Part shown: one piece after another, positions 6,001 to 46,429 of the stretch
How the letters are laid out: each line of letters starts with the position of its first letter
Position numbering within the stretch: position 1 is the first letter of the stretch
From: Plumapathes pennacea
Lineage: Eukaryota; Cnidaria; Anthozoa; Antipatharia; Myriopathidae
NCBI GenBank assembly: GCA_964036295.1
Contig: OZ038470.1
Span: 5,873,578 to 5,937,577, forward strand
Length of the DNA stretch: 64,000 bases
Reading direction: 5' to 3'
Made by a program: the position numbers and the translations under genes
The notes under the pieces: generated by a model
Databases searched by the model: none
What the model saw: the letters and a program-made list of their open reading frames with translations, nothing else
What the model was told of the DNA's origin: nothing

Positions 6001-9000
6001 TCCACCAGTACCTTTATGGTCATAAATTCACACTGGAAGTGGACCACCAGCCTCTAACAACGATTTTGGGTCCCAAGAATGCGGTACCAACATTGGCAGC
6101 TGCACGGCTACAAAGATGGGCGCTTATATTAGCAGCATACCAATATGACATTGTATACAGGAAGTCAGCGGACCATGCTAATGCGGATGCGATATCCAGG
6201 CTACCCCAGACCATAGAGCCTGGGAAACCTCAAGTAGCAGAGGAAGCAGAGATTTTCTATTTCACATATTTGGATGAACTACCCATCACTGCGTCAAAGA
6301 TATGTGAAGCTACCAAGAAATTGTTTCGGATAATGGGCCTCAATTTGCAAGTCAAGAATTTGCTCAGTTTGCATACTTGAATGGTATCAAACATACCTTG
6401 GTGCCCCCATATCATCCTGCCACGAATGGCGCGGATGAGAGATCTGTACAGATCGCCAAAGATGCACTGATCAAGCAATGAATGGATGACTGAATACGTA
6501 CATACGTACAAGAATGTGTTGAGTTTGTTCGAGCAAACTCTTAATAATTGTAACTCATTATCAACGAAGAACACCAAAGTAACCTTTCGTTCAAGGGCTT
6601 CAGCATACACAATAATTATACTTCAAGTCTTGTGGTAAGTTATCCAGGCAAATTTAAACTGAGGAATGTAAACAACTAAACAGTGCTCGACATTAAGGTT
6701 TTAGGTTGGTTGCCCTTCAGACTGTAGATTGACTTCAAGCAATAAAAAGTTTCGTCATTTCTGGTTGCCCAGCCCTGAATTTACCTGCCCGACCTAAAGT
6801 TTTGGTTGCCCCGGGCAAGCGGGCAAGCGGGCAACTGTTAATGTCGAGCACTGCTAAATCACGCGCATCCACTGCACAATGAGTGTCGATAGAAATGAAC
6901 GCCGGAATCCTGTGTATGGTCAACCGACTGAAACATTGATACAAAATGATAACTGCACGATCGATATAAAGTCCATACCGTTACGCAGTATGAAATGTTG
7001 TTTTCACACAGAGTTTATCAGGAAAACCGGGTGATGCTTGAAACACTCGAGGTATCGGCCAAGAGCAAGTATAAACCTTTGGAGTGTCCTCCGCATTCAT
7101 ACTTACACCAAAAGCTGTCATTCAAAGGCCGTAAAATTCCGTGCTTTAAAGTTAATCTATCTCTTGAAATGTATTTCATCGTGCCCAAACTTGGAATAAA
7201 TTTCCTAATTTGGAAGTCTATTGTTGACACAGCATGATGGACTGACTGACTGACGGTGTCATGCTGACTGACTGACTGACACCGACCTTAAAAAAGATTT
7301 TAAAATAATCTCCAAACGGAAAATAAACAAGAACCCCACTTTCTGAAAACCCACTACAGAGCGAGGGGATATCTGCGATTATCGTATTTCTAGTAGATTA
7401 TCGTAGTTAGGTAAGTATAATCCTTCAAGTACAACTATTATGGTTTCTGTTATATAGCTTCTCCTCAACTCCCTACACAACCAGTACCATTTACAAAGTA
7501 TTTAATACTAATGACAATCAAGTATACATGTACAATAACATGCTTTTGCCTTACTTACCTTGGGAGTGTCAATTGATGCCGCTCGACCAATGGTGGCAAC
7601 AACCCATATAATGTCTGCATCTTTAATTTGCTAAATAATATTATATATTATAATAAAATAATGACACATAGTACATGACATTCTACTAAAGCTGTAGATA
7701 CAATAATAATTTTTAAACTATGCAGTGGATATGACACAAGTTTGTACAAATACATCGATTAGGATGGTGTCTTTATAAAGGGACAGTGAATTCATGTACT
7801 AATTCTCTTCTCTAGAGGAGTTCAATAAAAAGCTAAGTCTTACTAACAATATTCTAAGAAGTAGTGTAAGGAGAATATTGACAGTTGAAGCAGCTTAAAC
7901 AAAAACAAAAGATCACTAGCTGCCATGTTATCCACAGATTACTGATAACTGGACAGCTCAACACTGCAACAGATGCAGTCGCAAATGCAGTGCGAAAATA
8001 GCACTTTTTCTGACTAAAACTTCTCTGGCAGTCGCAAAACCGCTACAATACCTTACTCAAACATCATCTCTGTATAAACTGTATAAACCTACATACACTA
8101 CTAACTATATTTGCACCATTAATATTGAGACTCAACTACCCTACCTTATCAGCAATTCGCACACGCACAAGATTACTGTCATGGTGGCCAGGGATGTCAA
8201 CCAAGATTATGTCCTTTGGCACTTTTGTAGTTGGGACATAAAATTTAATCTTCTTCACAATAGGATACAAGCATGAAACACAATCCTCCACCTCAGATTG
8301 TATGTCCTCTGGATTCTGTGAAAGAAATGCATTAATTTTAAGTTAAGTCAATCTTTCCCATTTTTGTCCTAAAACAGCACTGTTAAAAAGACCCTCTCAC
8401 CATAGGTGCTTTGTGCACCCATGTTTATGAAGGCCCGAGTGCAATATAGGCGTTGCTGCCACCGCCGTGCATCTTACAGTCACCCTGGCCGTTCCATTGT
8501 CTTCACTTCGTTTTACGACAGCGGCTCAGACGTGTACTCTCTGCTTCAGTCAGTCAGCCTCGTATTCTTTTCATAAACGTAAATTTTACATCCAGAGCTC
8601 GACTTTCCTGAGGCATCCTTGTTATGACTGACTGATCTGACTGTCACTGCTTGCCACATTCAATAACTTTACTTTATAAGTCTGTGCTGACTTATTTCGC
8701 GAAAAACATGAGAATCTGCCATTATTGTATAATATTAAAATGGCCGCTATCAGTCACTGAGCACACAAAGCATCTACAGTGAGAGGGTTCTCTTTTAAGT
8801 TAATCTTGTTAAGTGACATGTAAATACTTAAGACTTTACATAGTTAGACTAACTTCAAAGTATCCCAACTCACTGTCATTTCCATATTAATCATTTTTGT
8901 AAGATGTTTTCAGTTCATTTCGAACCCGAAAAGTGACAGATCGATGGATCAAACCTAGCTGTTAAGAGCATAAACTTAGGCTAACCCTGCAGAAAAGCTA

Positions 9001-12000
9001 AACGGCAACTTGATGGTTAGATGGTTAGGCTAAACGGTTGCTTGCTTTATGTTTTGATTTGGTTTCTGACATTTCTGACCTGTTGCATATTTTCATCTGC
9101 TACTCCTTGAGTTCATGATAAAGGTGTTTGTTAATAAAGTGTGACTGATTTTGGTCAGTAACAGGACCTGGGACCACAGAAAAGAGATTTTTATGGAGTC
9201 TTTGACTCTTCCATGGCCTAAATGATGCCTTCTGATATCAGCTCATACACGGCAAATTCTGGCTGACCACGAGAGCAAGAAAGAGAGAACAATCTGGTTT
9301 TCTCTTTTAAATGCATAGCCATTGAAAAAGGAACATTCGAAAAAACACAGTGATCTGTTTACAACTTTTACTGACGTTTGCCAACTTCCTATCAGATCCA
9401 TCGGAATTGACAATGGCACAATACATCATGTTTGAGCTTCGAGTTTGACTTGGACTGGAAAAGTTCTATTTCGGCATTCTCTTTTTCCTGTTGTCTTTGA
9501 GTTATTTCCTTTCTTCATGTGTTTGTGATCAAAATGATGGTGATCACGCATGAAAAAAAGCAGGATTTTAGAGACAGCAAAGTAAAAAGTTACAGAAGAT
9601 GGTCTTCTTTTCACACATTTAAATCTAACCGTTACACTACTGTACATGCTACCATGTATGTGAAACACAAATAGCACAGAGAATACTATTAAAAGTTCTT
9701 GTGTGGTAAAGTACCTCATGGACAATCTTGTGAAACCCTTTGCGAATGTGGGATTTAACATTCTCGTTATTCAGCATCTCTTCTGGAGAGCTCGGTATTT
9801 CATCATCAAACAGAGCTTTCAAATCTTTGGAAGCTTCTTCAGGAGATTGATAAATGTCAGCATCTTCCTGGTTTGGGTCCTCATTCTCATCTCCTAGCAA
9901 AAATTGAAAATACACCACAAATGATACAATATATAACAATACAATAATTTATTTGAACACTACACAATTTAGAAGACAATTTGATAAGGAAGAAGCCATA
10001 GGGTATTTAACTACCTAAATATAACTAAAAAGCTAAATGGTCTACAAAATGGGTTAAATCGTGTTTTAAACTTCATACTTTTGTCAAAATTACTGTGGCG
10101 TGAGTCATCTGATTACATGGCTATATCTAATTAATTTACCAACATTAAATGGAGGGAGGGGGAAATGATTGCATCAACAGTTTTGTCCACTGATGTAGGT
10201 TGTAAACACATTTATAGAATAATGAGCCACATACAAACAAGCACTCTGCAACATGTTAACATGCTTATGTATATAAACCATGCTCCATTGGTTTGCTTTG
10301 GTATAGAAGTTTGACTATACAGTAAAATCATTTTTTATCAACTAATTTAACTTGATGTTTTTAATGCTATATGCCAGGATAATTGACAAGTACAGCTAAA
10401 ACTTGTACCTCGTTCTCTATGGTATCATTGATAAGCATGTCCAAACCACATCAGCTTTTAGCTGCATGATCCAGTGTAGAATAAATATATACAGTGCATG
10501 GACTGACCAGAGATTATGCAGTAGGGCTAGTAGACAATCAACGTTTTTGATAAAAATAGTAATAAGAATAGTAAAGAAACATAATTATCCAACCTTCCAA
10601 GCGTGATGATTTCCAAAGCTTCTCAAATACATCTCTGCATTCATCATGAGGTAGAAACTCAAATTCTGCTTTGTACTCTGCATTCTCTGAATTGACAATG
10701 AACACTTCTGATACAGCTAATGTGCATGCTTCACCAAATGAAACTGCTGGCAGCACTTCTGCCTCTACTAAGGCATTTAGCAAAGTGGACTTCCCATCCC
10801 CTGTTTGCCCACATAAAACAAGCCGTTTACATTCCTCAAATGTAAAGTTCTCCCACTTCTTTTCTACTTTTTCAATGGTCCTCCTGCATGATTGGATTTA
10901 AGAAAAAAAAAATCAATAAAGAACAAATCAAAATGCCATCATAGGTTTAACCATTATTTTGTATCCTTCAGCAAACATCAGTATATGCCTAAGGGAGTGC
11001 CAGTAACTACACAATCTTCTTCCATACTTTTGAGGAGTACCGGAAACCACCCCACCCTCCCCTAGAAGTACAGATGTATACCTGAATTCTGCTGGAGCAT
11101 TCAAATTTTGCACTGCAACACTCAGATCCCGAAGAGCATTCTTTTGCTTCTCGTAGTACATTTTCACCTCTTTAGAAGAAGAGCCTTCAGGGATGAACTT
11201 TATCCTGCCAGTTCCTGCAAGCACACTATAAAAAAATGTCAGAAGAATCAATTCAGGTAAACTGAGATAGGTAGGTCCTTTATATCTTATCATATTGATC
11301 AGTCCCTTTCAATAGGATAAGCGAGCAAGTGCAAAGCAACTGCACACAGTCTGGGGAAGGGAAGCTCGGACCCAACAACCTCCTCGCATGACGCTCGCTT
11401 GCTCTCCTCAGACCGCACGCGCTCACTTTGCACTTGCTCAATTATCCTAGCACAAAGAAGGGACTGTTTTGCAGTCTACGCAAATAGTGCCTGCATACCT
11501 CTCATCTGGGTCGACATCCATGGCTTCCACCTCATCAGTGACTACAGCTACCCTGGGTCCAGTCCCCATGTTGCCATAATCCATGTCAAGCAAATGTGGG
11601 TACACACAAGGATTCTGTGATCCGGCTAACCATTCCATCATTTTATGCTTTGTTCTAGAGACCAGGTCGACCATAGGAATTACTTCTCCTTCCGTAAAAC
11701 TCGTCATGGTTTCCGCAACGGCTTTGGTGAAGAATGGGCACCACGAAGCCTCAAGGCCACTTTGGTTGATTTGGGACAACTCAGTCGCCCCACACGACAT
11801 AAAATATACAATACCAGTGCCTTCCTTCACAGCATCCCTGGCTTCTTTGTTAAATCGACCGGAAGTGTACCCACCAAGCGTTGCGGGCGGTCGGGGATCG
11901 GGATAGGCAAGGGCTCCAGAATAGCAAGACTCCAGCAATAACCAAACCTTGCCATCGGGAAGTGCGTCTTGCAACTGGGCCATGTAGTCCCTGAGAACTT

Positions 12001-12382
12001 CGCCAGATATGGACCTCTCATAAAATAATTCCCCTTCACTCGGGTCTGGGGAATCGCTCGTCATCAAGTGAAGCTCCCCAGTACGCTGATTTACAACGCC
12101 ATGCGTACAAACATACACGACGGCTTGGGAAGGCTTTGGGTCTGCTTCCCTGCACTCATCAATGAATAACCTCATGTAGGTCTTAAAAGATTCACACGAA
12201 ACGTTCGCGTGGTGGTTAAACGGCGCTCCAGACGTGTCATGAAGTGCGTTTCCAATTGTTTCGACCGCGGTGTTGATAGCGTCCGTGTCGTAATGTCTCC
12301 CCGCTCCCTTGGGTCGTGGAACATGTAGGGCAATTGCCACTGTGGGGAACATTGCCTTCCTCCTTTTGTAGGGGGACGACAT
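1..12382 (-). CDS. Caspase-like protease / SLIP-GC-like GTPase fusion, copy A (3' end outside window; one in-frame stop)
   Basis: Exons on the minus strand: 12382-11499, 11225-11082, 10883-10594, 9893-9715, 8315-8145, 7630-7559, 5132-5023, 4421-4325, 2590-about 2423, 2247-2065, 1561-1385, 921-646 and 169 to the left edge. Exon 1 encodes a C14-type caspase-like domain with the likely catalytic pair His94 (YVCTHG) and Cys153 (ESCYSG). Exon 3 carries a P-loop, GQTGDGKST, near residues 368-376. Exon 5 carries DIPG (G3), exon 7 the G4 position, and exon 9 the G5 motif SAK. The ACT just after the P-loop and the YKAE stretch resemble nuclear GTPase SLIP-GC (from family knowledge). Exon 10 contains TGA at 2203-2205 where copy B has TTA, so this copy may be a pseudogene or make a shorter protein. 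All other exons are open. The start is the ATG matching that of copy B. Confidence 0.75.
2667..3090. mobile_element. Small TIR element (hAT5-like) interrupted by a second element
   Basis: The element is flanked by AAAAC direct repeats (2662-2666 and 3091-3095) and begins CAGTG and ends CACTG. The same insertion with the same target repeat is in copy B (17673-17871), so it predates the duplication. Here it is split at an internal TTAA by another element. The internal text is a degenerate GGTTGCCC-rich sequence. Confidence 0.75.
2683..2940. mobile_element. TTAA-flanked MITE nested in the element above
   Basis: TTAA occurs at 2679-2682 and 2941-2944. The ends are inverted copies, AGAGACCCTCTCACC and GGTGAGAGGGTCTCT. 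Copy B keeps the single TTAA in the matching place (a CATTAAGG context), so this is a clean insertion in copy A after the duplication. There is no coding capacity. Confidence 0.8.
5802..6480 (+). mobile_element. Ty3/gypsy-like retrotransposon remnant (RNase H and integrase pieces)
   Basis: The open stretch 5802-6380 opens with TDASSYGVGAV and continues through a DHQPL motif to HANADAISRLP, the RNase H region of Ty3/gypsy polyproteins. It then jumps, in another frame near 6330, to a short integrase-core remnant containing SDNGPQF and PYHPATNG that stops at TGA (6479-6481). The region between, including the integrase zinc finger, is missing. No LTRs, gag or protease were seen. It is a dead internal fragment, present in copy A only. 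Confidence 0.85.
6681..6853. mobile_element. 173-bp TIR element (hAT5-like MITE)
   Basis: It has perfect 16-bp inverted ends, CAGTGCTCGACATTAA at 6681-6696 and its complement at 6838-6853. It is flanked by exact 5-bp repeats CTAAA (6676-6680 and 6854-6858). It belongs to the same family as 2667-3090 and 17673-17871. The 5-bp duplication and CAGTG ends fit the hAT5 type (from family knowledge). Confidence 0.85.
8387..8794. mobile_element. Longer TTAA-flanked MITE, AGACCCTCTCACC family
   Basis: The ends are AAAGACCCTCTCACC and GTGAGAGGGTTCTCT, with TTAA at 8383-8386 and 8795-8798. The ends match the 258-bp element at 2683-2940, but this copy carries about 150 more internal bases. It is absent from the matching intron of copy B. 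Confidence 0.7.
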
Positions 12383-14491: not shown

Positions 14492-17400
14492 TCAGTCGAA
14501 CGAAGACTTTAAGTTGCTCTTAAATGTGGTTACTGCTTGGATAAGTCTTTGCTTGGTTTCCGGTGGAACGTCGCTCAACACTTCGCCTTCCACAAGCATC
14601 TCTTTAATACCGTCTTTGAAGGTGTCCAGCTCACCCTTGATATTGTGCTGTGAAAAGGTGAAAGGTATAAGTAGAGGTACCTACTCCGGGTAGCCAAGTA
14701 CGAAGTAAATAGTACAGTCACGCGATCTGACTGATAACTCAACATTGCACGCGCACACAACCTGTCTCAGTCTGGCATCAAACTTAATTTTTAATTTTGC
14801 AAAGCAATGAATAAATGGAAGTGTCAAAAAACGTCCTTTAGCACTTGTCAACGTGTTACGTTGAATAATTGAAGCACTCAAGGACCTTAAGAGAACCCCC
14901 CTCCAAGTGTGCAGAAGCACTCCCAGGATAATTTGTGGAAGCATGGAGTTATACCTGAACAGAGCGAAGAGCTCGCTCCAGTTTGGCTTCAACTCCCTCA
15001 ATAACGCATTTGCCAATGTCGCCGGTCAGCTTCTCCTTAACAAAAGCGATCATATCCTCTTTCTTCCTGTAGTGGGTACCGCCTTTTTCGCGCCACTCAT
15101 CATACAATGGAGTTAACGCTTTTTGACATTGATCGCTGATGTTGGCAATGGCTGACTTGGCGGTGTCGTTGAAGACATCAGTCAGCGTACTGACCACATA
15201 CAGCATCTGTTTAAAATACAAATCGGCGCCATTCAGCAAAGTCACCATACCCTCAAAACTCCCATATTAACAATGAGGCCCATCCCATAGACTTTGGCTT
15301 CATGATTATTATTGTAATCGAACCTCAAAACACTTAGTTGTCAGTAAAAATAGGGGGGGGGGGGGGGGGGAACATTTGTCGGCATGAAAACAGAAAATGC
15401 TTCAACGTACTCTTTGTCTCAACAGGTTTTGCCCAAGATTGAAGAAGATTCACTAAGTTTTCAACTTTTTGTTTAATATTCAGCAGTGGTTCTAAACTGA
15501 CGCAAACAGCACAGAATAAGAAACTTCATATCAGTTTATTTTTCTAATAGCACTGCCTATGAAGGAATGTGGACACTTTGTAAAAAAAATGTAAACCATT
15601 GCATTTACTGTTAGTCTAAAGTGAACTGTGACGATGAGGTATGCAAGACTCCTACAAAGTTGGTCCCTGTAATCTTTTTAGAAACCCTCGATTATAATAC
15701 GCTTCCCCGTTCACAAGATTAAACTAACCTTTCCCCTAAAAAGGGCAACACAAGGCCAGACCACGCCAGGTTTTATCTTGTGAAGCGTTTCAAATCCCTG
15801 GGAGACCACACTATCCTCTGCAATCCAATCTGTTTCAAATTTCTGGAGCTTTTCCAAAATTGTATTGAACTCGTTGTTCCAGTCTTCCGCGACGCATTCG
15901 ACCATGTCTTTTGCAAGATCATCACTGATGACGATCTTTTTAGTTTTCTTGCTCACAAAGGATCCATTGTTTTCTAGTGTTGCTCTTAGTGTATTCCAGG
16001 GCATCTAAATACAACAACCAAGTTTAGAATATGTCGAATCTCTTATTACTGTGCATTTATCCATTGAACAGCAGTCTTCGTTTCATACGCGTATAAAAAC
16101 TAAACTAAAGACAGTGTTGGGCCAAGGTTTCAACTTACTTCTGTTACCGAACGAGAAGGACGGTAACACCGTAGTCTCGGCAACCCATCGATTTCGTAAT
16201 TTTTTTTGCCTCGTCCCCCATGCTTCACGTTTGACATCTAATTGTGCAATACACACACAATGATTGCCAGCTTAGTGTCTCCATTAGTTTATTGTTAGTT
16301 GCATTATGGCTTTTAAGTGAGAAGGAGCTGAGATGGATCTATAACCGGAAGCAGTGACTCACTTTCCTACACTTGTCCAAAACCTTGTTAATCCTTTCCG
16401 GGAAAGTTTTGATTTTCTCCTTTGTGGCTTTCTCGATTGCTTTTAGGTCGCCACTGATTAGCCCATCTTGGAACTGGTCGGTTATTTTCTTGACAGAGTC
16501 CAGCAATGCCTCAACATTCTTTTCCCACTGCTGTTCTTTCTGAAAATCATAAACAAACAACATTAATCCACTAATCTTATTATATAGAATAAAGGTCTTC
16601 ATCTAGAGTATTCATTTAAAATAATGCAAATATTTATCAGATATGTCCCACAAAGTATAATAGTTTGTAAAAAGAACTGTAAGTACAAGTGAAATTGTAT
16701 AAAAATATTATACACCAGTATGTCACATGAGGTGAACTTGTTGCAAGGACATGCCATCATGACAAGTCACCTTGTGCAACAGGATATATTAACATTTTAA
16801 CCACTACAGCGGCAAAATAGAGACGAACCAAGCCACCCTTTAATTCAAAATATGACTATCAACAATAATCGAAAACACAGTTAAAAGCATTGTTTTTGTT
16901 GTTGCACACAAACGGGTACTTAGACTTTTAGTCTACTCAAAACCATACCACAAATAGCTGGTATGTGTCACTGGGGAATTACCATTCACTGTAATGTACT
17001 GTACACCTCTTCGTACCATTTGATCTAAGCAGCACTTTAAGCAAGACAGAAGTGAACGAACCTGGTCCTTTTTTGTAAGGCCAACCTCACATTCCAGTTT
17101 CTTGTACAAACATGCATTTTCGTGACAAAATCTGGAAGTGAAATAATATAAACTAATGTCAAACTTTGCAATCAAAGTGTCCAATATTTCAATGCACCGT
17201 AAAGTCAAGAACATGTCCTTAACTTCAAAAGTCACCTGCTCTATCTGTTGCATGTTTGTGTTGTTAGTTCAGTTTTCATCCGACTGGTACTATAGCCACA
17301 ATAAAATAACTGTGCAACATGTAAGAACCAATCAAGGTACTAACACTTCGGCTGTCTAAAAAAACCTGAACAATAAAGTAATGTATAGCTGTCATGCTTC

Positions 17401-20400
17401 CCAGCATAGTGAACATACTCTTCCACTTTGAGGTGATGATGTTTATTAACTATCTCGTGGAGGACTTTCTGCAGTTTAGGAATGCCTGTATCCTCCGACT
17501 TGGTAAATACAGCTGGCGTTTCATCCCTTAGCAAGCGCAAATAATCCTTCGCAGATACGGCGAACACCGAAGCCTTCCAATTGCCACGGTTTATCTGTTG
17601 AAGGTATGGATAAAATGAAAGATGGGAAGGAGGGAAGAGAGATTAATACTGAATACTTTCTCAATATAAAACCAGTGTTTGACATTAAGGTTTTAGGTTT
17701 GTTGCCCTTCTGACTGTACATTGATTTCAAGCAATTATTATTGGATGCTTGATAATTGTTTCTGGTTGCCTGGCCCTAAATTTACCTGCCTGACCAATCT
17801 TTTTTTTTTTTTTTTTTTTTTTTTTTTGGTTGCCCTGGGCATAGTGGCAACCTCTCTAATGTCACGCACTGAAAACCATTTGGTTTCTGAGCTTCTTTTG
17901 ACAGCAATTTTCCAATGGACAACCACAAGGCATGTTTTGGTTGCCCCCACATTGTGCGACTGTGTTGTAAAGCAGCAGTGTCATGCAGCAGCCATAAATT
18001 GCTTTTTTTTCTCTCCAAAGCCACTGGTTGCCTAAGGGACAACCATTGCGAACTATTTGGTTGCCCAAGCATCAGGTTCCAAACAACTAAGCAATTGCAA
18101 ACTCTAGAAACTCTAGACAGCTTTCTTAAAGTGACAAGTTATCATAACCCAAATTATATGTACTGTATTTGGAGAGAATGAAAAGAGAAGAGCTGAAGTA
18201 ATGGGGTTGATCATTATGCTGCATGCTTTTAAATGAATTCAAGCAGCTGTTATTTGTGCTGTGTCCCACCAGTATTTGACAGGAGTGCAAAGAATGTAAA
18301 AATCAGATTCACTGTGCTCTGTGTTCACAGATATACAAAACCAAAAAACACATGCAATAATCATTATTCAAACCGTCTGAAATTTCTGGTGAAGGTCTTT
18401 TTCAACTTTCAGCCCTCTCCACCTTGCATACAACAGCCTCCACTGCGTTTTGAGTAGTTGACACTGAGATAAAGAAGACAATAACTTTTTTACTATTACA
18501 ATTATCGGTCCACATAATTCTTACAGAGTACAGATCAACGCATTTATTTCTCAGCAGAATGCCACATAATATCTTATTAACCCTGTCACTCCATTTTCTC
18601 CTTCAGTTTCTCACCAGAAATGTATCATATAGTAAGGAGAACTTGGCTTTTGATACATTGCTCAGATGATAGTTGATTAAACTATCAATTCTCACTACAT
18701 TACTCATACATTTTACTCTTAAATGGCTGGGAGAATCTGTATTTTGAGCTTGGGAGTGAAAGGGTTAATCATGTTTGTCCACTTACTTACAGTATGGGCA
18801 ACACCTTAGGTTGATAAAATACTGTGCATTTGTAGTACAGACCAATGCTGGATCAAAACATACTGTAGCTACAAAATGAGAATGCTATGCAATGTTGATT
18901 TTTACATTTTACTCCTCAGCTGCCATGTAAAAACACCATCTCCTGTAACTGACATCAGTGCACTAGTGTTATTTTTAAACATACAGTAAAACCCTGCTAT
19001 CTCAAAAACAGCTGTCTGGAACAGAATCTAATTCCCCTTGGAAATGAATTTGGTAGAACTCTGCTATCTTGATCCCAAGCTTGATCTCAAACTATTTTTT
19101 TCTTCCCTCAGGAGTTCTAGATAGCAACAATCAAATGCAAAATAGTTGAGACACTTGCAGAAAAAAAACCATTCTTCTCTTCTGTTCCCTCACTCTCATC
19201 TGGATTTCATTTGACAGCATCTTTACCCCCTCCCCTGTTTCAATGTTGAGTATCCAATATCGCACAACAAGATTTCAGGCCCAAACAACATTGAGACGGG
19301 GGGAGGGGGAGGCAGAAATCAACAAAACTTAAAAGCCAATAAATTGCTCAAAATATGCACAGTGTCTCAACTACTCTTGCAATTGGTTGAAGATTCTACT
19401 GTAATATATATAGATAAGTAGTACGTAGGTGGTACAAACTGTACCTATACACCTATATACCTGTTCCTTGTCCTTTTCGCCTTTACACTTTTGAAACAAA
19501 TCTTGCATGTTCTCCTGGATCTTCTTCATCTGAGGATCATTATATTTCCGAAAGATGCTGCAGAGAAAAAAATCTGATGAAATAGATTGCATTTTAATGA
19601 GTCAAATTACACAAGCTTAGCATGGACTTATGGACAAGACCAGACCAGACCAAAGATCGTATTCACATAAGAAGGTAACACTAAACTCTTGAACAAATTA
19701 AGGTGTACAAAATCATATTGGTCTGTACAAAAGGCATTTACCCAATTTGTGCACCTACATTTTGTTTGAGCTGATTGGTTGACAAATCCCTCAAAGAAAT
19801 GTTAAGCTACAAAAAGTTTCTAATGAAAACACAGTCATTTACACTTATCTACAATATTATTTGACTAGTGGGACCCCTGTTTGACTAGCAGGACCCTGAC
19901 TTTTTCTTTTTTTTCTTTCTTTTTTTCCTTTATGAAGTCCATTTAGAGCATCTCAAATGCAATTTACAGTGTCAAACTACAAACTTCTATGTAGTACATG
20001 TAGCACTCGACTATACCACTCGACAAATTGCCGATCAATTGACATGAAAATCTCCCCGTTTTTCGAACATGCTGCAGCATCGGCCTGACATCCAGTCACC
20101 TGACAGCACAAATTCTTTTTAAACTCATTTCCGATTTCTAAAAGTCCTGTAGTCAGCATACAAGGCCAATATTTACACTTAGTTTCACTCAATGTGGCGA
20201 CCATCTTGGATTTTTTTATGATGAGGAGGCCTGGGAAAGAGCATTACGGACGGACAGACGGACAGAAGTGAGTTAGCGTATAGATTGGGAAATCCTTTCA
20301 ATGTCAATAATAGTATAATGCAAACACAGGAAGCAGTATTTTCATTGTATAGTGCTTCTTCACTCTTTCTTTGGTCATTTAAAGCCGGAAACATGCTTAT

Positions 20401-23400
20401 GGAGTGCTGAGAGGTATTATTTTTTGTGATTGAAGTTGGACTACTGGTTGTGAAAAAAACCGAAAATCTGAACCAGCAAAATGATAAGCAGTTTTAACTA
20501 TTGTGATGTCATATGACATGAACAAGCGCTGCGTCATGTCGCAAAACGCTCACTTCTTGCTAAAACTATTCAATATCTTCAAATTTCTGCAACTTCTGCT
20601 ATGTGAGATCTTGAAGATGAGAAGTACAAATCTCCTGCACTTGCTGGCACTGTTCACACCATGTGACATCACACACATTCATTAATAAGATGGCAAACTT
20701 TTCACACTTTCGTGGTCAAAATACCGGTTTTCGTGTCCAAAAAAATGAACAAAAATATTTTCACAACTGTAAATAGGGGATTACGAATCATTAATATACT
20801 GAGCTACATGTTTACAGTTAATTTGGCAGTTTGTGCATGATTTTCATTTCAGTAGCACTTTAACATTAGGAAATTAGGAAATTAAAGTTAAGGAATAAAT
20901 TTATTAGCAAATTTGCATTTTGGGCACAGCCTGACAAAATGAAATTAAGTAAAGAAAAAAAACTTTATTTAAGTCTCAATGTATTTAGCACTGCCATGCT
21001 AATTGGGTAGACTTGAAATGCAGAAACCAAATATCATAAACTTAATGCAAATTTGTTAAGAATCCCAACTGGTCGGAGGCTAACCAGTTGGCTATTTACA
21101 TAGTGTGGCTGAGGATTTGAACTCAGGGCTACCTTGTTAGAAATTCAGCTAGTGGTCAGAGCGGGACTTGAACCTGGGAGCTCCGGATTTCAAGTCTGGC
21201 GCCCTAACCACTCAGCCACTGCCTCCCCTATAAGTAACACATATATGTATATAAAAGCACATGTATCATAAAAATAATGCCTGGGAAAGCAGTTGCTATC
21301 CTTTCCTTTTCATCTAAATGAGGCACTATCAATGCATGGCACATACCTCTTCATGTTTTTGGGAAGATCTTCACATTTGTCATCATTTTGCGTGCACACA
21401 AATGCCAGAGTACTTTTTCGTGCTATGTTGCCCTCCATAACTTTGGACACAAGGAACTAGATGAAACAAACCTGTCAGGACATATGCTACAACTGTGCAA
21501 AACATAATATTATTTGTTACAACACATTGTAATGAAGTTAAAGCTTGGAATTGATTGATATATTTAATCACTCATAATTTGTACTCATGGTTGTGTCAAG
21601 TTTAACTCTATGTGGTCCAGTGTTGCACAACAAGCACATCTGGCAATTGTTAAATGTGATGTGTACACTGCCATTACATAAAGTAAGACAAATAATTGTC
21701 CTGTTTCACGCCCACATCGTTGGTCCATCAAGTCAGCTCAGCTACTGTTGGGCTTTCGGGCTCAGCCAGGCCTAAGGGCCTGGCCTTAAACTTTACAATA
21801 TTAGACTTTCACAATAATGAGAGATTTGTAGCAAATGAAAGAGAATTGAGTGGTAAAGAGAACAATTTTTTTGCAGCAGGCTCATCACATGACCAAAATC
21901 CATTGGTGACTGAAACTTCATTGTCTCAAGGTAATGCGATAATTTCTCGAATATCCCACACCAGACATTGACACCAACTCAGAAAGTTACGAGATCTTTT
22001 ATGTTTTTCATGACATTTCTACAAAAAGAAACACAACAGAATTCACTTTTGTGCATGCCTTGTGCATGACGTCAATCCAACATGGACACCGTGGGATAAG
22101 GCAAGTTTTGGAAACACAGGAATAACGCAAAAGTTAGTTTGGTGACCTACCCTGAATTTTTGGGTATAGATCTCTACATTTAAGATCTGCATTTTGCAGA
22201 AAAAAAGAAAAAAAAAATACAACTGTGGAGCAGTTTTTTCAGAATTTGGGTTAAAGCTGGTGCACTTTATTGTAAATTGTTCTATTTGGGCAGAAAGCAT
22301 ATGATATATCGGCCACAATAGCACCTAAATGGAGTTTTTTTTATAATTCAAATCTGGTACACAAAAGGAGTCTTTTGTAGTGAATTTAAGGACAGAAATG
22401 GCCTGTGCTAAAAGAGTTAAATAGTACTCACGCCATAAGATATCTTATTTTAATCAAGTAAGTGTAATCTCTCAAGTACAACTATTAAGGTTTCTGTTAG
22501 AGATTTTCCTCAACTCCCTATACAACCAATAGCATTTTACAAAATGCTACTGATAATCAAGCATACATGTAACATGCTTTAATTTGTCTTAACTTACCTG
22601 GGGTGTTTCATTTGATGCTGCTCGACCAATGGTGGCAACAACCCATATAATATCTGCATCTTTAATTTGCTGAATAACAATATCATATATTACATAACAG
22701 TACATAGTTACATGACATTCTACTAAAGTTGTAGATACAACAATAAAAATTGTTGTATCTACAACAATTTTTAAACTATCTTGATGCTGCAGTTGTGATA
22801 CAGGTTTGTACAAATATATCGATTAACAGGCTGGTGTCTTTATAAAGGGACAGTGAATTCATGTACTAATTCTCTTCTCCAGAGGAGTTCAATAAAAAGC
22901 TAAGTCTTACTAACAATATTCTAAGAAGTAGTGTAAGGAGAATATTGACTGTCAAAGCAGCTTAAACAAAAGAGATCACTAGTGGCCATGTTATCCACAG
23001 ATTATTGATTATTGGAGGGCTTGACACTGCGACAGATACAGTTGCAAATGCAGTTCCAAAATAGCACCTCTTGAGGCTAAAACTCCTCTGGCAGTCACAA
23101 AATGATGACTAGCCTTCAATTAAACAGCATCTCTGTATAATACACTACTAACTATATTTACATCACTAAACTACCCTACCTCATCGGCAATTCGCTCACG
23201 CACAAGATTACTGTCATGGTGGCCAGGGATGTCAACCAAAATCATGTTCTTCGGCACTTTCTCAGTTGGGACATAAAATTTAATCTTCTTCACAAGAGGG
23301 TGCAAGCGTGAAACACAATCCTCCAACTCAGACTTCATGTCCTCTGGATTCTGTGAAAGAAATGCATTAAAAAGTTAAGTCAAGCCAATCTTTCCTACTT

Positions 23401-26400
23401 TAGTACTTTCATCCTAAAAAGCTCTATAAAGTTAATCTTGTTGGGTGATATGTATATTTAAGAAATTTATAATGTATTCTAATGTAATATAGCCTCATTG
23501 AAACACACAGAAAGTTATAGAAGAGCATGAGAGGGCAACGATACAGGGCAACCATCATCTGGAACTCACTCCCAAATGAATACAAGAGCATGAGTGACAG
23601 TTCTAACTTTAAGAGACGCGTTAGAGCATTACCCCTGAATGATTTTAGTTTTAAAAAAGAAGCATGCATGATAACTTTTAAAGATAAGAAATTTACTTAC
23701 TTTTAATTATAATAGTGTGTATGCGTGTGCGTGCGTGTGTGTGTATGTGAGCGGACGCGCGTGGGGATGGTGGGGGGAGGAGGGGGGTCGAGGTAGTCAA
23801 ATGTACGTAAGGTGTAAGTAATAATGTAAGTTAGGTAGCAAAGTGAGTGACTAAAGTGCAAAAGTAAAGTAAAGAGTTAGGTGAATGACGGGAGCGAGTC
23901 TGTAGGATAACGATACTCGATAGATAATTTAATATGTAGATTTTAGATAGAAGACACGACCCCACCAGCGTTTTGCTGAAAGTTTGTAATCGTGTATAAA
24001 TAAAGGTTATTGATTGATTATTGATTGATGAGAGTAGTGTAGGGAAACCACACATAGTTTAGACTAACTTCAAAGTATCCTAACTCACTGTCATTTCCAC
24101 ATCATTCATTTTTGTGGGGTCTTTTCTTTCACTACAATAATATATTACTTCTTGGCTATTTTTCCATTTTTTTCCACAAAACCCTATGGGTTGGGACCAT
24201 TTTGCATGTGATCTACTGTATGCAGAAATTCATATACAGTTTCATCAATTTGTGATCTAAGCATGCTATCAAAACCCAAGCTCCACAAACCATACATATT
24301 TTTGCTGAGAAACTGAAAGAGAAAATTATGGATGTTGATCACTAAATGAAGAGAAAGGTCAAAGTATATTGCTGGCCAACTTTAGTACACTACAGGGCCC
24401 AGTTGTTCGAAGCAAGGTTAAGCTAACCCCGGGTTAGGAGTAAACTTTGTTTTCATTTTTAAACTTAAAAACAAAAGTGTTTGATCACAAAAGGAGTCCA
24501 TCATTCTGTTTTGAACAAGAACAAACTTTTTAGCTAGTCTATGATCAAAACTCTGCAGTTTGTTAACCACAAACAAGAAAGAAAAAATTTGGTTAACTCT
24601 GGGTTAGCTTACTGGGCTTTGAACAAACCCAGCCCTGAATTACATTTAGGAGATCTAGTAAACCTGAAACCTTGAAAGAAGACCATCTTATGTGACTTTT
24701 TACTTTGCTCTCTAATCCCAATTTTTGTGACTTCTGTCATTTTGATCAGAATTCACAGAGGAAGGAAATAAAGTCAATAATGACAGAAATAATAGAACAG
24801 AAAAAAACAGAACATTTTCAGTTCAAGTTGAACTTGAAAACCATTGGTTAAACCCAAAAAGTGACAGGTAAAATGGACCAAACTTGGTTGTTCAGAGCAT
24901 GAACTTAGGCTAACCCTGCTGAAAAGCTAAATGGCAACTTTGGTTGCTTGCTTTATGTTTTGATTCAGTTTCCAACATTTCTACCCCTAGCTAGAACATT
25001 GAATTTTAGTCTTTGACCAGGTTGACAAACAAACTCAATTATAGCCGAAATTGCATTGTGCAGCAAAACTCAACATTTCAAACTTCTTTCAGTATTGGCT
25101 GGTCGAAAAATTCTATAAAATCATATACATTTGTTGAAATCACAGAGCCATGCAGTAGAACCTTCCTTGGTCTAAATGATGCACAGCAAATTCTGGCTGA
25201 TCACATGAGCAAGAAAGAGAGAGCAATCTGATCTCCTCTCTTCGATACCTGGCTGTTGAAAAAGGAACACTCAAAAAAACACAGCTGCATTTATCCACAA
25301 AAGTGACAGACACATCTCAGCCATCTATTTACCACTTTTACCAATGTTTGCCAACTTTCAATCGGATCCACTGGAATTGGTGACAGCACATTATGCCACA
25401 TTTGAGCTTTAAGTTTAACTTGGGCTGAAAACGTTTTCTTTTGGCTTTTTTTCCAGTCATTTTTGACTGTATTTCCTTTCTTTGTGTTTCTGATCAAAAT
25501 GACAAGGATCAAACATGAAAAAATCGAGATTTTGAAGACAGCAAAGTAAAAAGTCACATAGGATGGTCTTCTTTTCACACATTCAATTCCAATATTGTTA
25601 CACTATTGTACATGCTACCATGTATGTGAAACACAAATAGCACAGAGAATACTATTAAAAGTTCTAGTGTGGTACAGTACCTCATGGACAATCTTGTGAA
25701 ACCCTTTGCAAATGTAGGACTTAATATTCTTGTGATTCAGCATCTCTTCTGGAGAGCTTGGAATTTCATCGTCAAACATTGCTTCCAAATCATTGAAAGC
25801 ATCTTCAGGAGACTGATAAATGTCAGCATCTTTCTGCTCTGGGTCGTCATTCTCATCTCCTATCAAAAGTTGAAAATACACTGCTAACAATACAATACAT
25901 AACAATACAATAATTTACTTGAATACCACACAATTTACAAGACAATTTGAAAAGATAAAGAAGAAGCCATAGGGTGTTCACTACCTAAATATAACTAAAA
26001 AGCTAAATGGGCTACAATGGTGGACAAAATGTGTTGACACATGTATTAAACTTAACACTTTTTACAAAATTGGGAATTTTGATCAGTTAATCAAATAGTT
26101 TAATTATTCACTTGTGTTGGTAACCCACAGCTTTGTATTTCCTACCTCGTGATTCATAGCTGTGGTGTAGCGTTCACACGTTATCCGCCTTAATCATTAG
26201 CTTTTTCAACCCTCCCTCCCTCACCTAGGGTATACTTTGTGTCTAAAAAATCAATTCATGCCCAAACATGCCACTTAATTACTCATCCCACTGATTAGCA
26301 GGGATATAATATTACTATGCCTTGAGTCACCCGGTTACAGAGAAAACTGCTTTTGAATCCCCCTCCCCCCCCCCCCCCCCCCTGGATGAATTCCAGTAGG

Positions 26401-29400
26401 ACTTTGACAAGAAACCATAGCTAAATAGTTAATTTACCAATATTGAATGGGGGGAGGGGGGAATGATTGCATCAACAGTTTTGTCCGCTATTGTAGGTAG
26501 TAAACACATCGCAGTTTATAAAATAAAGAGCCACATACAAACATACAGGTATATAAACCACACTCCATTGGTTTGCTTTGGTATAGGTTTGACTAGTAAA
26601 ATCATTTTTTGAATTTTGTTTGCAACAAATTACTTGATGTTTGTATGCTATATGCCAGGATGAATGACAGTAGAGCTAAAACTTGTACATCGTTCTCTAT
26701 GGTACTATTGGTAAGCTTGTCCAAACCACATCAGCTTTTAGCTGTATGATCCAGTGTACAATAAATATATACTGTACAGTGCATGGACTGACCAGAAATT
26801 GGACAGTAGGGCTAGTAGACAATCAATTTCAAGGCTTCCAAGGCACGGGGGTCACCTCGGCTGTTTTTATGCACATTCCAATGAAGCCACGCATCCGAAG
26901 CAGTTTCAAATCTGTGTCCCTTGGTTCTTCGTTACACATGGTAAGTCCGGGGAGTTTACAACTGAATTATCTAATGCAAATCCGTTCAACGTACTGGACA
27001 TAAAAACGCAATTCTGTTGCCGACGGATGAACTACGTTCACTGAGACTATTGGATTTGTAGAGCCGGTACAAATAAGAACCAAATTGTAACAACTTAACA
27101 AAACAGTGCATTACATGCAGTAAATACACCTGGTCACTGCAAGAAATGAAAGAAGGGGCCGGTGTTGTGAATAGTCATTGATATTTCAGTGTTAAATTCA
27201 ACCTCAATGGTTGCTTTAACTGATCATTATGACGAAACAAGGGCAATATTTTAGCTGCAGTAGAAGAGAGTATATCGTTAGCCCCGCCTAAACTAAGTTT
27301 AGTATTGCGATGCAAATCTCTGTTTGACACCGTCCTTATACCGGCCGAGGTAAAGCTGAAATCGTGTATTGCATACGATGTTGGTAGTTTATTGTCAATC
27401 GATGGCGTGTAAACAAAACCGAGAGGTTTTTGTTTGTTTTTTCTCGGAGTCGGGTATATTCAATTAACATAATTTTGTGGTAGCGTCCCTCTCATTGATA
27501 TTTTCAACTTCTTTTTCCCGCATTCCTTCTAAAGGGGAACTCAGAGAGTGCACAAACCCAGAACGATGACACTCGTAACGAGAACTATGCTTTTAGCTGT
27601 ATGATCCAGTGTACAATAAATATATACTGTACAGTGCATGGACTGACCAGAAATTGGACAGTAGGGCTAGTAGACAATCAATTTTTTTTGATAAAAATAG
27701 AAATAAACATAGTAATGAAACATAATTATCTAACCTTCCAGGAGCGATGATTGCCAGATCTTCTGCAAAACATCTTTGCATTCATCATGAGATAGAAATT
27801 CTACCTCTGTTTTGTACATTGCATTCTCCATGTTGACAATGCACACTTCTGATACAGCTAATGTGCATGCTACCCCACACGAAGCTGCTGGTAACACTTC
27901 TGCCTCTACTAAGGCATTTAGCAAGGTGGACTTCCCATCTCCTGTTTGCCCACATAAAACAAGCCGTTTACATTCCTCAAATGTAAAGTTCTCCCACTTC
28001 TCTTCTACTTTTTCGATGGCATTCCTGCATGACAGGATTTGAAAAACAAACAAACAAGAGATCAATAAAGAACAAAGCAATGGTGTCATAACCTTAACCA
28101 TTTGTGTCCTTCAGCAGACATCAGTATATGCCAAAGGGAGTAAATATAATGGAAAATGTGTGCAAATTATGTGTTGAATCAAACAACTACTAACTGTAAG
28201 AAATCCAAAGACTGGAGCCAATTAAATGCACATTTACACACTAAGCAGGGATAGAACTTACTATTTTTTCTTACTAGGCAGCCGGACTAGTAGACCCCAA
28301 ATTTTACTAGTCCACCAAGATTTTTACTGGTCCAATACAAGTGATACAAATTTTAAATGCAATGACGCGCTCTGGATACAACACTGGCTTGTGATAGTTT
28401 ATTGGACAGCCGGACTAAATTGTGGGCAATTTTACTAGTCCGAGGTCATTTTTACTAGTGATCGGACAAGAGGACTACTGCTAACTTTGAACCCTGCTAA
28501 GTATTTTACAAGTTATACCATTATCTACTCTATTCTACCCACTATTCTAATATTATTCTGCAATATTATAGCATGTCATGAGATCAGAACCACAAGGCAG
28601 TCGAAGGAACAACTGCACAACCAAAAAACTCCAAAATAACTATAAGCCATGAAGGTATGTGCCATCCAAAAAGTATTCTGGAAATAGGGCATAAATAATT
28701 AACGTACATTTTTTGTCTTTTTGGTCTGAAATAGGGTAGTAGATTTTCCTCAGTGTTCCTGTATTTAGTCTGAAACACCCAATTTGCTCCCTATCTCAGA
28801 CCAAAAGGACAAAACTTATGGTATTTAATGCCCTAAAATTTTGGGAATAGGTCTGAAATAGGGTAAGAATCTTCAGAACTGTGCAGCACACTCCCATACA
28901 AAATTATGAGTACCTAGAAGTACAGATTCATACCTGAATTCTACTGGAGCATTCACACTCATCACTGCAGAACTGAGATCCTTAAGAGCATTCTTTTGCT
29001 TCTCGTAGTACATTTTGACCTCTTCAGGTGAAGAGCCTTCAGGGATGAACTGTATCATGTCTTTTGATCCAGTTCCAAGCACACTACTGATACAAAAATA
29101 GCCATTCTTGATTTAGAAGAAACTAAATTTAATATTTTTCCAGGTATCATTTTTATCTACAGTAACATGTCTTTATCATGTCGAATATGTACAGTCAACT
29201 CCCTCTTAATGGGCAACACCCCTTTCAAGACAGGCACCTATCTAAGATGGACACCTGGTAGGAGTGGTCCCTACTGTTTCTTCATTCATTTACTCTAACT
29301 GACTGACACCTCTCTAAAATGTACAGTTGGAGAGGGAGTTGACTGTAATATTGGTAAAATTAATGTCCAGTAAATACATGTTGACCAGTTCCTGCTGGTC

Positions 29401-30357
29401 GCAACTCCAGTGGAGGGGAAGACCAGGGTTGAAACTAACTAGTATATATATATATATATAGCAAATGATGCCTGCATACCTCTCATATGGGTCGACCTCC
29501 ATGGCTTCCACCTCATCTAGAGTATCTACAGGTACAGTCCCAGTGTTGCCATACTCTATGTAACGCAAATCTGGATACACACACGGTTTCTGTTTGCCGC
29601 ATAACTCTTCCTTTATTCTATTGCATGTTTCTGAGACCAGTCTGACCATAGGAATCCCTTCTCCTGGCGGAAAACTCATCATGGTTTGTGCAACGGCTTT
29701 GGTGAAGAATGGGCACCACGAAGCCTCAGGGCCACTTTGGTTGATTTGGGACAACTCAGTCGCCCCACACGACATAAAATATACAATACCAGTGCCTTCC
29801 TTCACAGCATCCCTGGCTTCTTTGTTAAATCGACCGGAAGTGTACCCACCAAGCGTTGCGGGCGGTCGGGGATCGGGATAGGCAAGGGCTCCAGAATAGC
29901 AAGACTCCAGCAATAACCAAACCTTGCCATCGGGAAGTGCGTCTTGCAACTGGGCCATGCAGTCCCTGAGAACTTCGCCAGATATAGACCTCTCATAAAA
30001 TAATTGCCCTTCACTCGGGTCTGGGGAATCGCTCATCATCAAGTGAAGCTCCCCAGTACGCTGATTTACAACGCCATGCGTACAGACATACACGACGGCT
30101 TGGGAGGGCTTTGGGTCTGCTTCCCTGCACTCATCAATGAATAACCTCATGTAGGTCTTAAAAGATTCACACGAAACGTTCGCGTGGTGGTTAAACGGCG
30201 CTCCAGACGTGTCATGAAGTGCGTTTCCAATTGTTTCGACCGCGGTGTTGATAGCGTCCGTGTCGTAATGTCTCCCCGCTCCCTTGGGCCGTGGAACATG
30301 TAGGGCAATTGCCACTGTGGGGAACATTGCCTTCCTCCTTTTTTCGGGGAACGACAT
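14492..30357 (-). CDS. Caspase-like protease / SLIP-GC-like GTPase fusion, copy B (complete)
   Basis: Fourteen exons: 30357-29480, 29083-28934, 28024-27735, 25859-25681, 23350-23180, 22669-22598, 21456-21347, 19557-19461, 17594-about 17427, 17244-17062, 16539-16363, 16004-15729, 15206-14955 and 14647-14492 (TGA). Phases agree and give about 1,052 residues. Residues 1-290 form a caspase-like domain with His94 and Cys153 (ESCYSG, close to the metacaspase DSCxSG form). The GTPase follows: GQTGDGKST near 368-376, DIPG near 539-542, TQND near 602-605 (G4 with Gln for the usual Lys), and SAK near 663-665. Exons 10-14 are charged and helical, as in large dynamin-like GTPases. There is no signal peptide or membrane segment, so the protein is probably intracellular. 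The function is inferred: a GTPase switch linked in cis to a protease, reminiscent of GBP/caspase immune modules. The exon 9 donor is unsure; the frame stays open to about 17367. Confidence 0.85.
15352..15371. repeat. G homopolymer in intron 12 of copy B
   Basis: A run of about 20 G between the last exons of copy B, absent from copy A. It is likely to be length-variable. Confidence 0.8.
17673..17871. mobile_element. Small TIR element (hAT5-like), undisturbed copy
   Basis: It is flanked by AAAAC at 17668-17672 and 17872-17876, with CAGTG and CACTG ends. It is orthologous to the interrupted copy at 2667-3090. It contains a T-run of about 30. Confidence 0.8.
18581..18764. mobile_element. 184-bp TTAA-flanked MITE (CCCTxTCACTCC family)
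   Basis: TTAA is at 18577-18580 and 18765-18768. The ends are CCCTGTCACTCC and GGAGTGAAAGGG. The matching intron of copy A has a single TTAA (3738-3741) and no insert, a direct empty site. CCC ends and TTAA duplications fit piggyBac-type non-autonomous elements (from family knowledge). Confidence 0.85.
20953..21230 (-). mobile_element. tRNA-derived SINE
   Basis: It is flanked by TAAGTAA at 20946-20952 and 21231-21237. On the minus strand the head reads like a Ser/Leu-type tRNA: A box TGGCTGAGTGGTTAGGGCG, an anticodon-arm-like GACTTGAAATCC, and B box GGTTCAAGTCCC. A non-tRNA body and a T-rich tail follow. It lies in intron 7 of copy B and is absent from copy A. Confidence 0.8.
23465..24035 (+). 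mobile_element. 5'-truncated LINE 3' end (CR1/L2-like)
   Basis: The plus strand encodes the typical C-terminal end of a non-LTR reverse transcriptase (IWNSLPNEYKSM, then SNFKRRVRALPLNDF). A GT-rich tract, an untranslated region and a short ATTG-repeat tail follow at about 24008-24028. Copy A lacks it at the matching position. Confidence 0.75.
24394..24637. mobile_element. MITE, GGGCCCAGTTGTTC family
   Basis: The ends CAGGGCCCAGTTGTTCGAAGC-like and GCTTTGAACAAACCCAGCCCTG-like are inverted. Related copies lie at about 30752-30969 and 55968-56264. It lies in intron 4 of copy B, within a stretch absent from copy A. No certain target duplication was seen. Confidence 0.65.
26734..27684. repeat. 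Insertion of the gene's own upstream DNA between 96-bp direct repeats
   Basis: Positions 26734-26829 and 27589-27684 are identical over 96 bases. Between them, 26830-27588 is a close copy of 31017-31778 from upstream of the same gene. Intron 3 of copy A has the 96-bp unit once and no insert. Confidence 0.85.
28246..28496. mobile_element. 251-bp TIR element with 5-bp target repeat
   Basis: It begins CAGGG and ends CCCTG, with exact CTAAG repeats at 28241-28245 and 28497-28501. The interior has several ACTAGTCC-type motifs. The 5-bp duplication matches the hAT5-like elements at 6681 and 17673, although the inner sequence differs. Confidence 0.7.
29443..29460. repeat. TA dinucleotide repeat
   Basis: A short (TA)n run just outside the exon 1 donor of copy B, absent from copy A. 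Confidence 0.8.

Positions 30358-44246: not shown

Positions 44247-46429
<2,183 letters not shown>

Follow-up and report, generated by a model that had tools for sequence, protein, structure and literature searches.

A stretch of 64,000 nucleotides (nt) of Plumapathes pennacea contig OZ038470.1 (the window, to which coordinates refer unless another sequence is named) carries on its minus strand a gene, here called gene A (30357..14492), that appears to encode a caspase-like protease and a GTPase in one chain of 1018 residues. Two relatives with the same arrangement serve for comparison: a tandem copy in the window (copy B) and a diverged paralog on another chromosome (contig C1; the C1 paralog). 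The ATG of gene A lies at 30357 and its stop codon ends at 14492, both exact. Fifteen exons were first joined in one frame with GT..AG at each junction. The candidate for exon 5 was then discarded, as neither copy B nor the C1 paralog yielded a counterpart; without it the 14 exons still read in frame, and their numbers follow the 15-exon chain. The features of gene A are as follows.

29480..30357, minus strand, exon 1: 292 codons, phase 2 at its 3' end; carries a caspase-like C14 domain whose dyad is His94 (in YVCTHG, codon 30078-30076) and Cys153 (in ESCYSG, codon 29901-29899); N-terminal KRRK cluster
28934..29086, minus strand, exon 2: linker, phase 2 to 2; own open frame without an ATG ahead of the exon
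27735..28024, minus strand, exon 3: P-loop GQTGDGKST (27951-27925), Dynamin_N
25681..25859, minus strand, exon 4: counterparts in copy B and the C1 paralog
24238..24312, minus strand, rejected candidate exon 5: 75 nt, 25 codons, in frame, canonical sites
23180..23350, minus strand, exon 6: DIPG (G3, 23233-23222); counterparts in copy B and the C1 paralog
22598..22669, minus strand, exon 7: GTPase domain; counterparts in copy B and the C1 paralog
21347..21456, minus strand, exon 8: TQND at the G4 position (SQND in the C1 paralog)
19461..19557, minus strand, exon 9: counterparts in copy B and the C1 paralog
17419..17594, minus strand, exon 10: SAK (G5, 17555-17547); counterparts in copy B and the C1 paralog
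17062..17131, minus strand, exon 11: counterpart in copy B
16363..16539, minus strand, exon 12: C-terminal region; counterpart in copy B
15729..16004, minus strand, exon 13: C-terminal region; counterpart in copy B at 921-646
14955..15206, minus strand, exon 14: C-terminal region; counterpart in copy B spans the window's left edge
14492..14647, minus strand, exon 15 and stop codon: counterpart in copy B left of the window

In this gene model the polypeptide consists of an N-terminal C14 domain, a linker of about 50 residues, a dynamin-type SLIP-GC-like GTPase, and a C-terminal region. The 3' end of exon 1 reads GAGAG followed by gtatgc and lies in phase 2; exon 2 is preceded by a cag acceptor and is also in phase 2, by which the caspase-like exon is joined in frame to the GTPase exons. 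An earlier reading of the letters alone (the sequence-only reading) had given the coordinates of the gene and the motifs YVCTHG, ESCYSG, DIPG, SAK, and the P-loop correctly; they are read in exons 1, 3, 6, and 10. It had also proposed a fusion in cis, with exon 1 spliced in frame to the GTPase, and this holds as a gene model of 14 exons with canonical sites and a phase 2 to phase 2 junction.

The GTPase of gene A matches Dynamin_N of Pfam (E 3.9e-15). A protein database search, which scored only the 7995 candidates sharing most words, matched it to only three proteins, all SLIP-GC proteins of cartilaginous fishes. When compared with SLIP-GC proteins, it aligns over 447 columns with 28% identity (hhalign probability 99.8, E 3.6e-29), and the SLIP-GC-like GTPase of the sequence-only reading is thus borne out. 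Among the 17 Pfam rows obtained for the gene A protein at E up to 1, the N-terminal family of GBP is not found. DUF7605 of Pfam is likewise not found in it at E up to 1 and is present in one fish SLIP-GC protein (P0001).

Copy B begins at 12382, runs beyond the window's left edge, and has the same exon order and phases as gene A. Eleven of its exons in the window were modelled first; a twelfth lies at 921-646, and the left edge truncates one more. The last exon is matched beyond that edge, outside the window. The exon chain of copy B is as follows.

11499..12382, minus strand, exon 1: caspase-like, 88% identical to that of gene A; same dyad, donor, and phase
11082..11225, minus strand, exon 2: linker
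10594..10883, minus strand, exon 3: P-loop, also found by the P-loop exon search
9715..9893, minus strand, exon 4
8145..8315, minus strand, DIPG exon
7559..7630, minus strand, equivalent of gene A exon 7
5023..5132, minus strand, equivalent of gene A exon 8 (TQND)
4325..4421, minus strand, equivalent of gene A exon 9
2415..2590, minus strand, equivalent of gene A exon 10 (SAK)
2065..2134, minus strand, equivalent of gene A exon 11
1385..1561, minus strand, equivalent of gene A exon 12
646..921, minus strand, equivalent of gene A exon 13: 276 nt, phase 0
1..169, minus strand, equivalent of gene A exon 14: incomplete at the window's left edge, with its start taken from the translation

An RNase H-like retroelement domain (PF17917, E 9.9e-37) lies on the plus strand at 5790-6380 within an intron of copy B.

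For the C1 paralog, nine exons were assembled (11420370 to 11405246 of contig C1), the last exons being left unassembled. They match gene A exons 1-4 and 6-10, and the phases are equal at all eight junctions. Intron 1 of this paralog holds reverse-transcriptase-like sequence (a predicted peptide, recognised by eye), across which the fusion arrangement is kept. When the genome is searched, exon 1 is found at five places and the P-loop exon, at E up to 0.001, at three, and the protease exon lies upstream at all three of these P-loop loci. A search with the whole GTPase adds just two distant matches, both on contig C5 (E 0.014 and 0.052), and no protease match is listed there in either the PF00656 genome scan or the exon 1 genome search. 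Dynamin_N matches 69 places in the genome; the statements made here on a protease exon cover the three P-loop loci and the two C5 matches.

The two further protease exons are found on contig C3 and are nearly identical to each other (L019 5900-6727 and L020 5791-6618). Beside neither of them do the genome searches with the GTPase and the P-loop exon give a match to a GTPase of the gene A type. Downstream of these exons, on the same strand, a ZU5 domain is found at L027 3115-3723, and Death domains are found at L020 1756-2136 and L028 8114-8653. The Death domains are not among the best 150 Death matches of the genome. A splice chain from the C3 protease exons to the ZU5 and Death domains was looked for and none was demonstrated; the C3 exon may be joined to another partner of the death type. 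Clusters reading KRRK or KRK stand within the first ten residues of all three fusion copies and are absent from both C3 copies. They are possibly a nuclear signal, which would fit the nuclear name of SLIP-GC.

Intron 1, which separates protease from GTPase, is 393 nt long in gene A and 273 nt in copy B. The two introns are alignable only in their first 19 bases (E 0.001; next best E 0.53), while exons 1 and 2 align. With a splice-site scoring matrix built from the other 21 introns of genes A and B, the exon 1 donor outscores every other nearby GT in gene A and copy B alike. The strong exon 1 donor, the recurrence of exon order and phases in copy B and the C1 paralog, and an intron 1 that cannot be aligned between exons that can be, together indicate that the gene A chain is more than chance, and we infer that its exons form one mRNA.

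Two other accounts of this structure have to be weighed. The protease and the GTPase could be adjacent genes, namely a single-exon caspase-like protease followed by a GTPase gene with its own start, in which case the matching phases would be an inherited coincidence. Exon 1 read beyond its donor stays open for 55 residues in gene A and 17 in copy B until a stop, the C1 paralog has a stop directly after the donor, and the two C3 copies of the protease exon stand without a neighbouring match to a GTPase of the gene A type. ATGs also occur inside exon 2, one of which (VKM) is common to A and B, and a downstream start is therefore possible. However, the first ATG of exon 2 is at a different position in each of the three fusion genes, while the position of the strong donor is shared by A, B, and C1, with phase 2 running into phase 2 each time. 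Together with the short gap between exons 1 and 2 in both window copies and with the linkage kept in a copy on another chromosome, this makes separate genes an improbable explanation. An artefact of the assembly or of the gene model is far less probable still. Tandem copies A and B are similar and the cores of their exons 1 almost identical, as such an artefact would have it, but the same structure is found at three loci on two large contigs, and intron 1 differs between A and B.

The identity of the protease was approached with profiles. Exon 1 of gene A matches the NCBIfam family NF047832, "caspase, EACC1-associated type", at E 6.4e-8 and that of copy B at E 4.4e-8, both below the family cut-off. 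The C1 paralog matches Pfam Peptidase_C14 (PF00656) above the cut-off (E 1.3e-14), and one C3 copy matches the same family at E 1.2e-9. Similarity to C14, which the sequence-only reading had left to a profile search, is found in these matches. His94 and Cys153, the pair expected of C14, are invariant in an alignment of the five animal copies with two bacterial rows. The latter are Nostoc plasmid proteins, in which His94 corresponds to SGHG and Cys153 to DCCHAG. An active site of the D-x-C-H-x-G type is present in the C1 paralog (DCCHSG) and both C3 copies (DCCH(S/A)G across C1 and C3); genes A and B have ESCYSG instead. In canonical caspases of this genome the motifs are QACRG or QSCRG together with SHG or THG, and neither QACRG nor QSCRG is found in the fusion protease.

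A profile of the five animal copies gives an hhalign probability of 99.0 (E 5.7e-18) against five bacterial domains and 0.8 against five canonical caspases of the same genome; the bacterial domains score 8.3 against these caspases. The caspases are five of eight fetched loci; for the bacteria, seven were fetched from 6 and 29 plasmid records, of which five, trimmed to 300 residues, were used. By its motifs and these profile comparisons, the fusion protease resembles orthocaspase-type C14 domains of bacterial conflict systems more closely than it does the five canonical caspases, and its predicted domain is not a canonical or inflammatory caspase. The kinship with inflammatory caspases and GBPs that the sequence-only reading had implied is therefore not upheld, given the missing QACRG/QSCRG, the two hhalign values, and the lack of a GBP match in Pfam.

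With the protease half of gene A, no relative is found in the protein database at E up to 1, and with the C1 protease only one marginal protein is obtained (Pfam label CHAT, E 0.36), which is not a convincing relative. No cnidarian name is returned by the protein searches; since the representation of anthozoans in the database is uncontrolled, this does not establish absence elsewhere. Gene A exon 1 has no match in PADLOC or PHROGs. No relative emerged when prokaryote genomes and viral contigs were scanned by pattern, or when phages were searched by tblastn with the C1 copy. In the PDB, the profile of five copies finds weak matches to metacaspases (best E 4.8e-4), with one matched stretch lying over the Cys motif; with the C1 copy the top rows are SAKe proteins in short repeated stretches, rejected as chance.

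The NF047832 search of the genome gives 140 places at E up to 1, including many weak matches within very long open frames. One of its matches (L038 348-1400), located roughly 5 kb upstream from the fusion gene on C1, has AAHG and SCCHSG and looks like the end of a CHAT-type protease. L036 and L037 (contigs C1 and C7) hold p20 fragments with FAGHG and LLDVCRK, which are presumably paracaspase-like.

Some of the bacterial loci lie in contexts of conflict systems. Of seven loci, one has an iSTAND protein and an AAA ATPase as neighbours, EAD1 proteins adjoin two, and one carries at its end a match to EAD10 that stays below the cut-off. In passages of PMC7159879, iSTAND, EAD1, and EAD10 contexts are among the settings described for such systems. 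In a midpoint-rooted tree of 15 rows, built from sequences other than eukaryotic metacaspases, the animal family forms one group (100/100), as do the canonical caspases (100/100), while the bacteria do not form one group. The three fused members cluster at 91/92. The tree fits one fusion event, and it shows neither origin nor horizontal transfer.

Between copies A and B, nonsynonymous (Ka) and synonymous (Ks) divergence are 0.086 and 0.242 in the GTPase exons. In exon 1, codons 1-215 (30357-29713 in gene A) have Ka 0.014 and Ks 0.028, and the low Ks suggests that the protease core has recently undergone gene conversion. The remainder of exon 1 changes fast, under either relaxed or diversifying selection.

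How might the two halves work together? GTP-driven dimerisation or assembly is a behaviour of the dynamin family. The GTPase would act as a threshold switch through such dimerisation or assembly, which would bring the protease domains together and activate them in trans. The activated protease would cut after Arg or Lys, like orthocaspases, and not after Asp; this specificity is proposed because orthocaspases, according to passages of PMC6426788, have a His-Cys dyad and cleave after positively charged residues. The likely setting would be a cell-autonomous defence or cell-death response. We infer that the GTP state is coupled to protease activity; read in this way, the fusion protein would be a GTP-gated and probably Arg/Lys-specific protease, and it may combine the roles of sensor and executioner. 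Overall, we lean slightly towards the whole of this reading, that is, one polypeptide of ~1018 residues in which a bacterial orthocaspase-type C14 domain is joined to a SLIP-GC-related GTPase as threshold switch, with Arg/Lys cleavage in a defence or cell-death setting.

A number of observations weigh against it. The usual G4 motif is TKxD. At this position genes A and B have TQND and the C1 paralog SQND, so that Asp is kept and Lys is missing in all three genes. For exon 2, the acceptor ranks first among the nearby AGs in copy B and no higher than fourth in copy A. The curated cut-off of NF047832 is 140 bits, and with 32 bits for gene A and 50 for the C1 paralog the score for EACC1-associated membership is not reached. 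Exon 1 of the window copies has no Pfam match, and the genome-wide six-frame scans with PF00656 and NF047832 passed over both (that with PF00656 also over C1). The ESCYSG of the window pair, compared with DCCH(S/A)G of the paralogs, may mean an altered activity. Codons 216-292 of exon 1 have Ka 0.267 and Ks 0.269 between A and B, compatible with relaxed constraint, and because of the probable gene conversion in codons 1-215, this pair does not allow purifying selection to be judged for the protease core. On the bacterial side, tblastn of gene A exon 1 against plasmids finds nothing, three of the seven loci are without a listed conflict-system neighbour, and the tree is of little help on kinship, its only firm split besides the animal group being that of the canonical caspases.

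Some of these points fit a different division of labour within a fused protein. The protease domain could lack catalytic activity or serve regulation, as a decoy or scaffold, leaving the work to the GTPase. The ESCYSG motif and the exon 1 end with Ka about equal to Ks would fit this, and pseudo-orthocaspases are common in some bacteria, as stated in passages of PMC6426788. On the other hand, the His and Cys residues are the same in all seven aligned rows, animal and bacterial, and the C1 paralog retains the full DCCHSG; a dead protease seems to us rather improbable. Alternatively, the protease could come first, its cleavage of the linker freeing the GTPase as effector, in which case the protease would not be under the control of the GTPase. 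For bacterial EACC1 systems, passages of PMC7159879 propose that a constant N-terminal caspase releases variable C-terminal effectors by self-cleavage. Here, too, the protease is N-terminal; on C9 and C1 it is followed by the GTPase, on C3 perhaps by a different partner. This order of events is unlikely, though it deserves more weight than a dead protease; no cleavage site is identified for it, and the analogy is its sole support.

This reading has an evolutionary counterpart, a tentative proposal somewhat short of an even chance: in a hexacoral lineage, a protease like those of bacterial conflict systems was joined to a SLIP-GC-like GTPase, and the product, a single-chain GTP-gated Arg/Lys protease that would sense intracellular trouble and set off cell death or processing with no additional adaptor, was later duplicated. 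A hexacoral is what the mitochondrial contig of this genome points to: ARAGORN identifies two tRNA genes there, one for Met and one with a tca anticodon labelled SeC, the genes are read with table 4, and the match to cox1 falls into two parts with a different open frame lying between them, which together fit a hexacoral.

The closest known relative of the GTPase half, the vertebrate nuclear GTPase SLIP-GC/NUGGC, has the same order of GTPase motifs and the Dynamin_N domain in common with the fusion protein, at the identity given above. C14 is not among the Pfam domains listed for SLIP-GC of the three cartilaginous fishes, whereas the fusion protein carries a C14-like domain; P0001 has TKTD at G4, in contrast to the TQND or SQND of the fusion genes, and DUF7605, for which the gene A protein gives no match. 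Bacterial orthocaspase-type C14 domains (EACC1 type, iSTAND ternary, and EAD1-linked) share the His/Cys dyad and the profile, and some adjoin NTPase or EAD partners. At the loci seen here these partners are separate genes, while the animal gene is fused, contains introns, and reaches only 32 of the 140 bits for NF047832. With canonical caspases of the same genome, the fusion protease shares the broad C14 superfamily and the His/Cys dyad; QACRG/QSCRG is theirs alone, and there is no profile match to the five tested.

In the vertebrate pathway of GBPs and inflammatory caspases, a large GTPase works with a caspase-fold protease, the two being separate proteins. The idea of pairing a GTPase with a caspase fold is alike, but the fusion has another GTPase family and another protease subfamily. 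Fusions of TRADD-N to AIG and GBP GTPases are described in passages of PMC8195603, and those passages do not mention an animal caspase-GTPase fusion. A literature search by titles and abstract openings found no description of the caspase-like/GTPase fusion. If true, a dyad-bearing protease of bacterial type would exist in an animal on a large GTPase, which would let one molecule sense and cut and would offer a one-protein system for direct measurement of GTP control over a caspase-fold protease. It also bears on the proposal, found in passages of PMC8195603 and PMC7159879, that bacterial conflict systems and parts of the cell-death machinery of animals are built from common components.

Elsewhere in the window, a PDZ domain exon is found at 32905-33087, and EF-hand exons lie at 34625-35206 and 44479-44943, the second of which is calmodulin-like.

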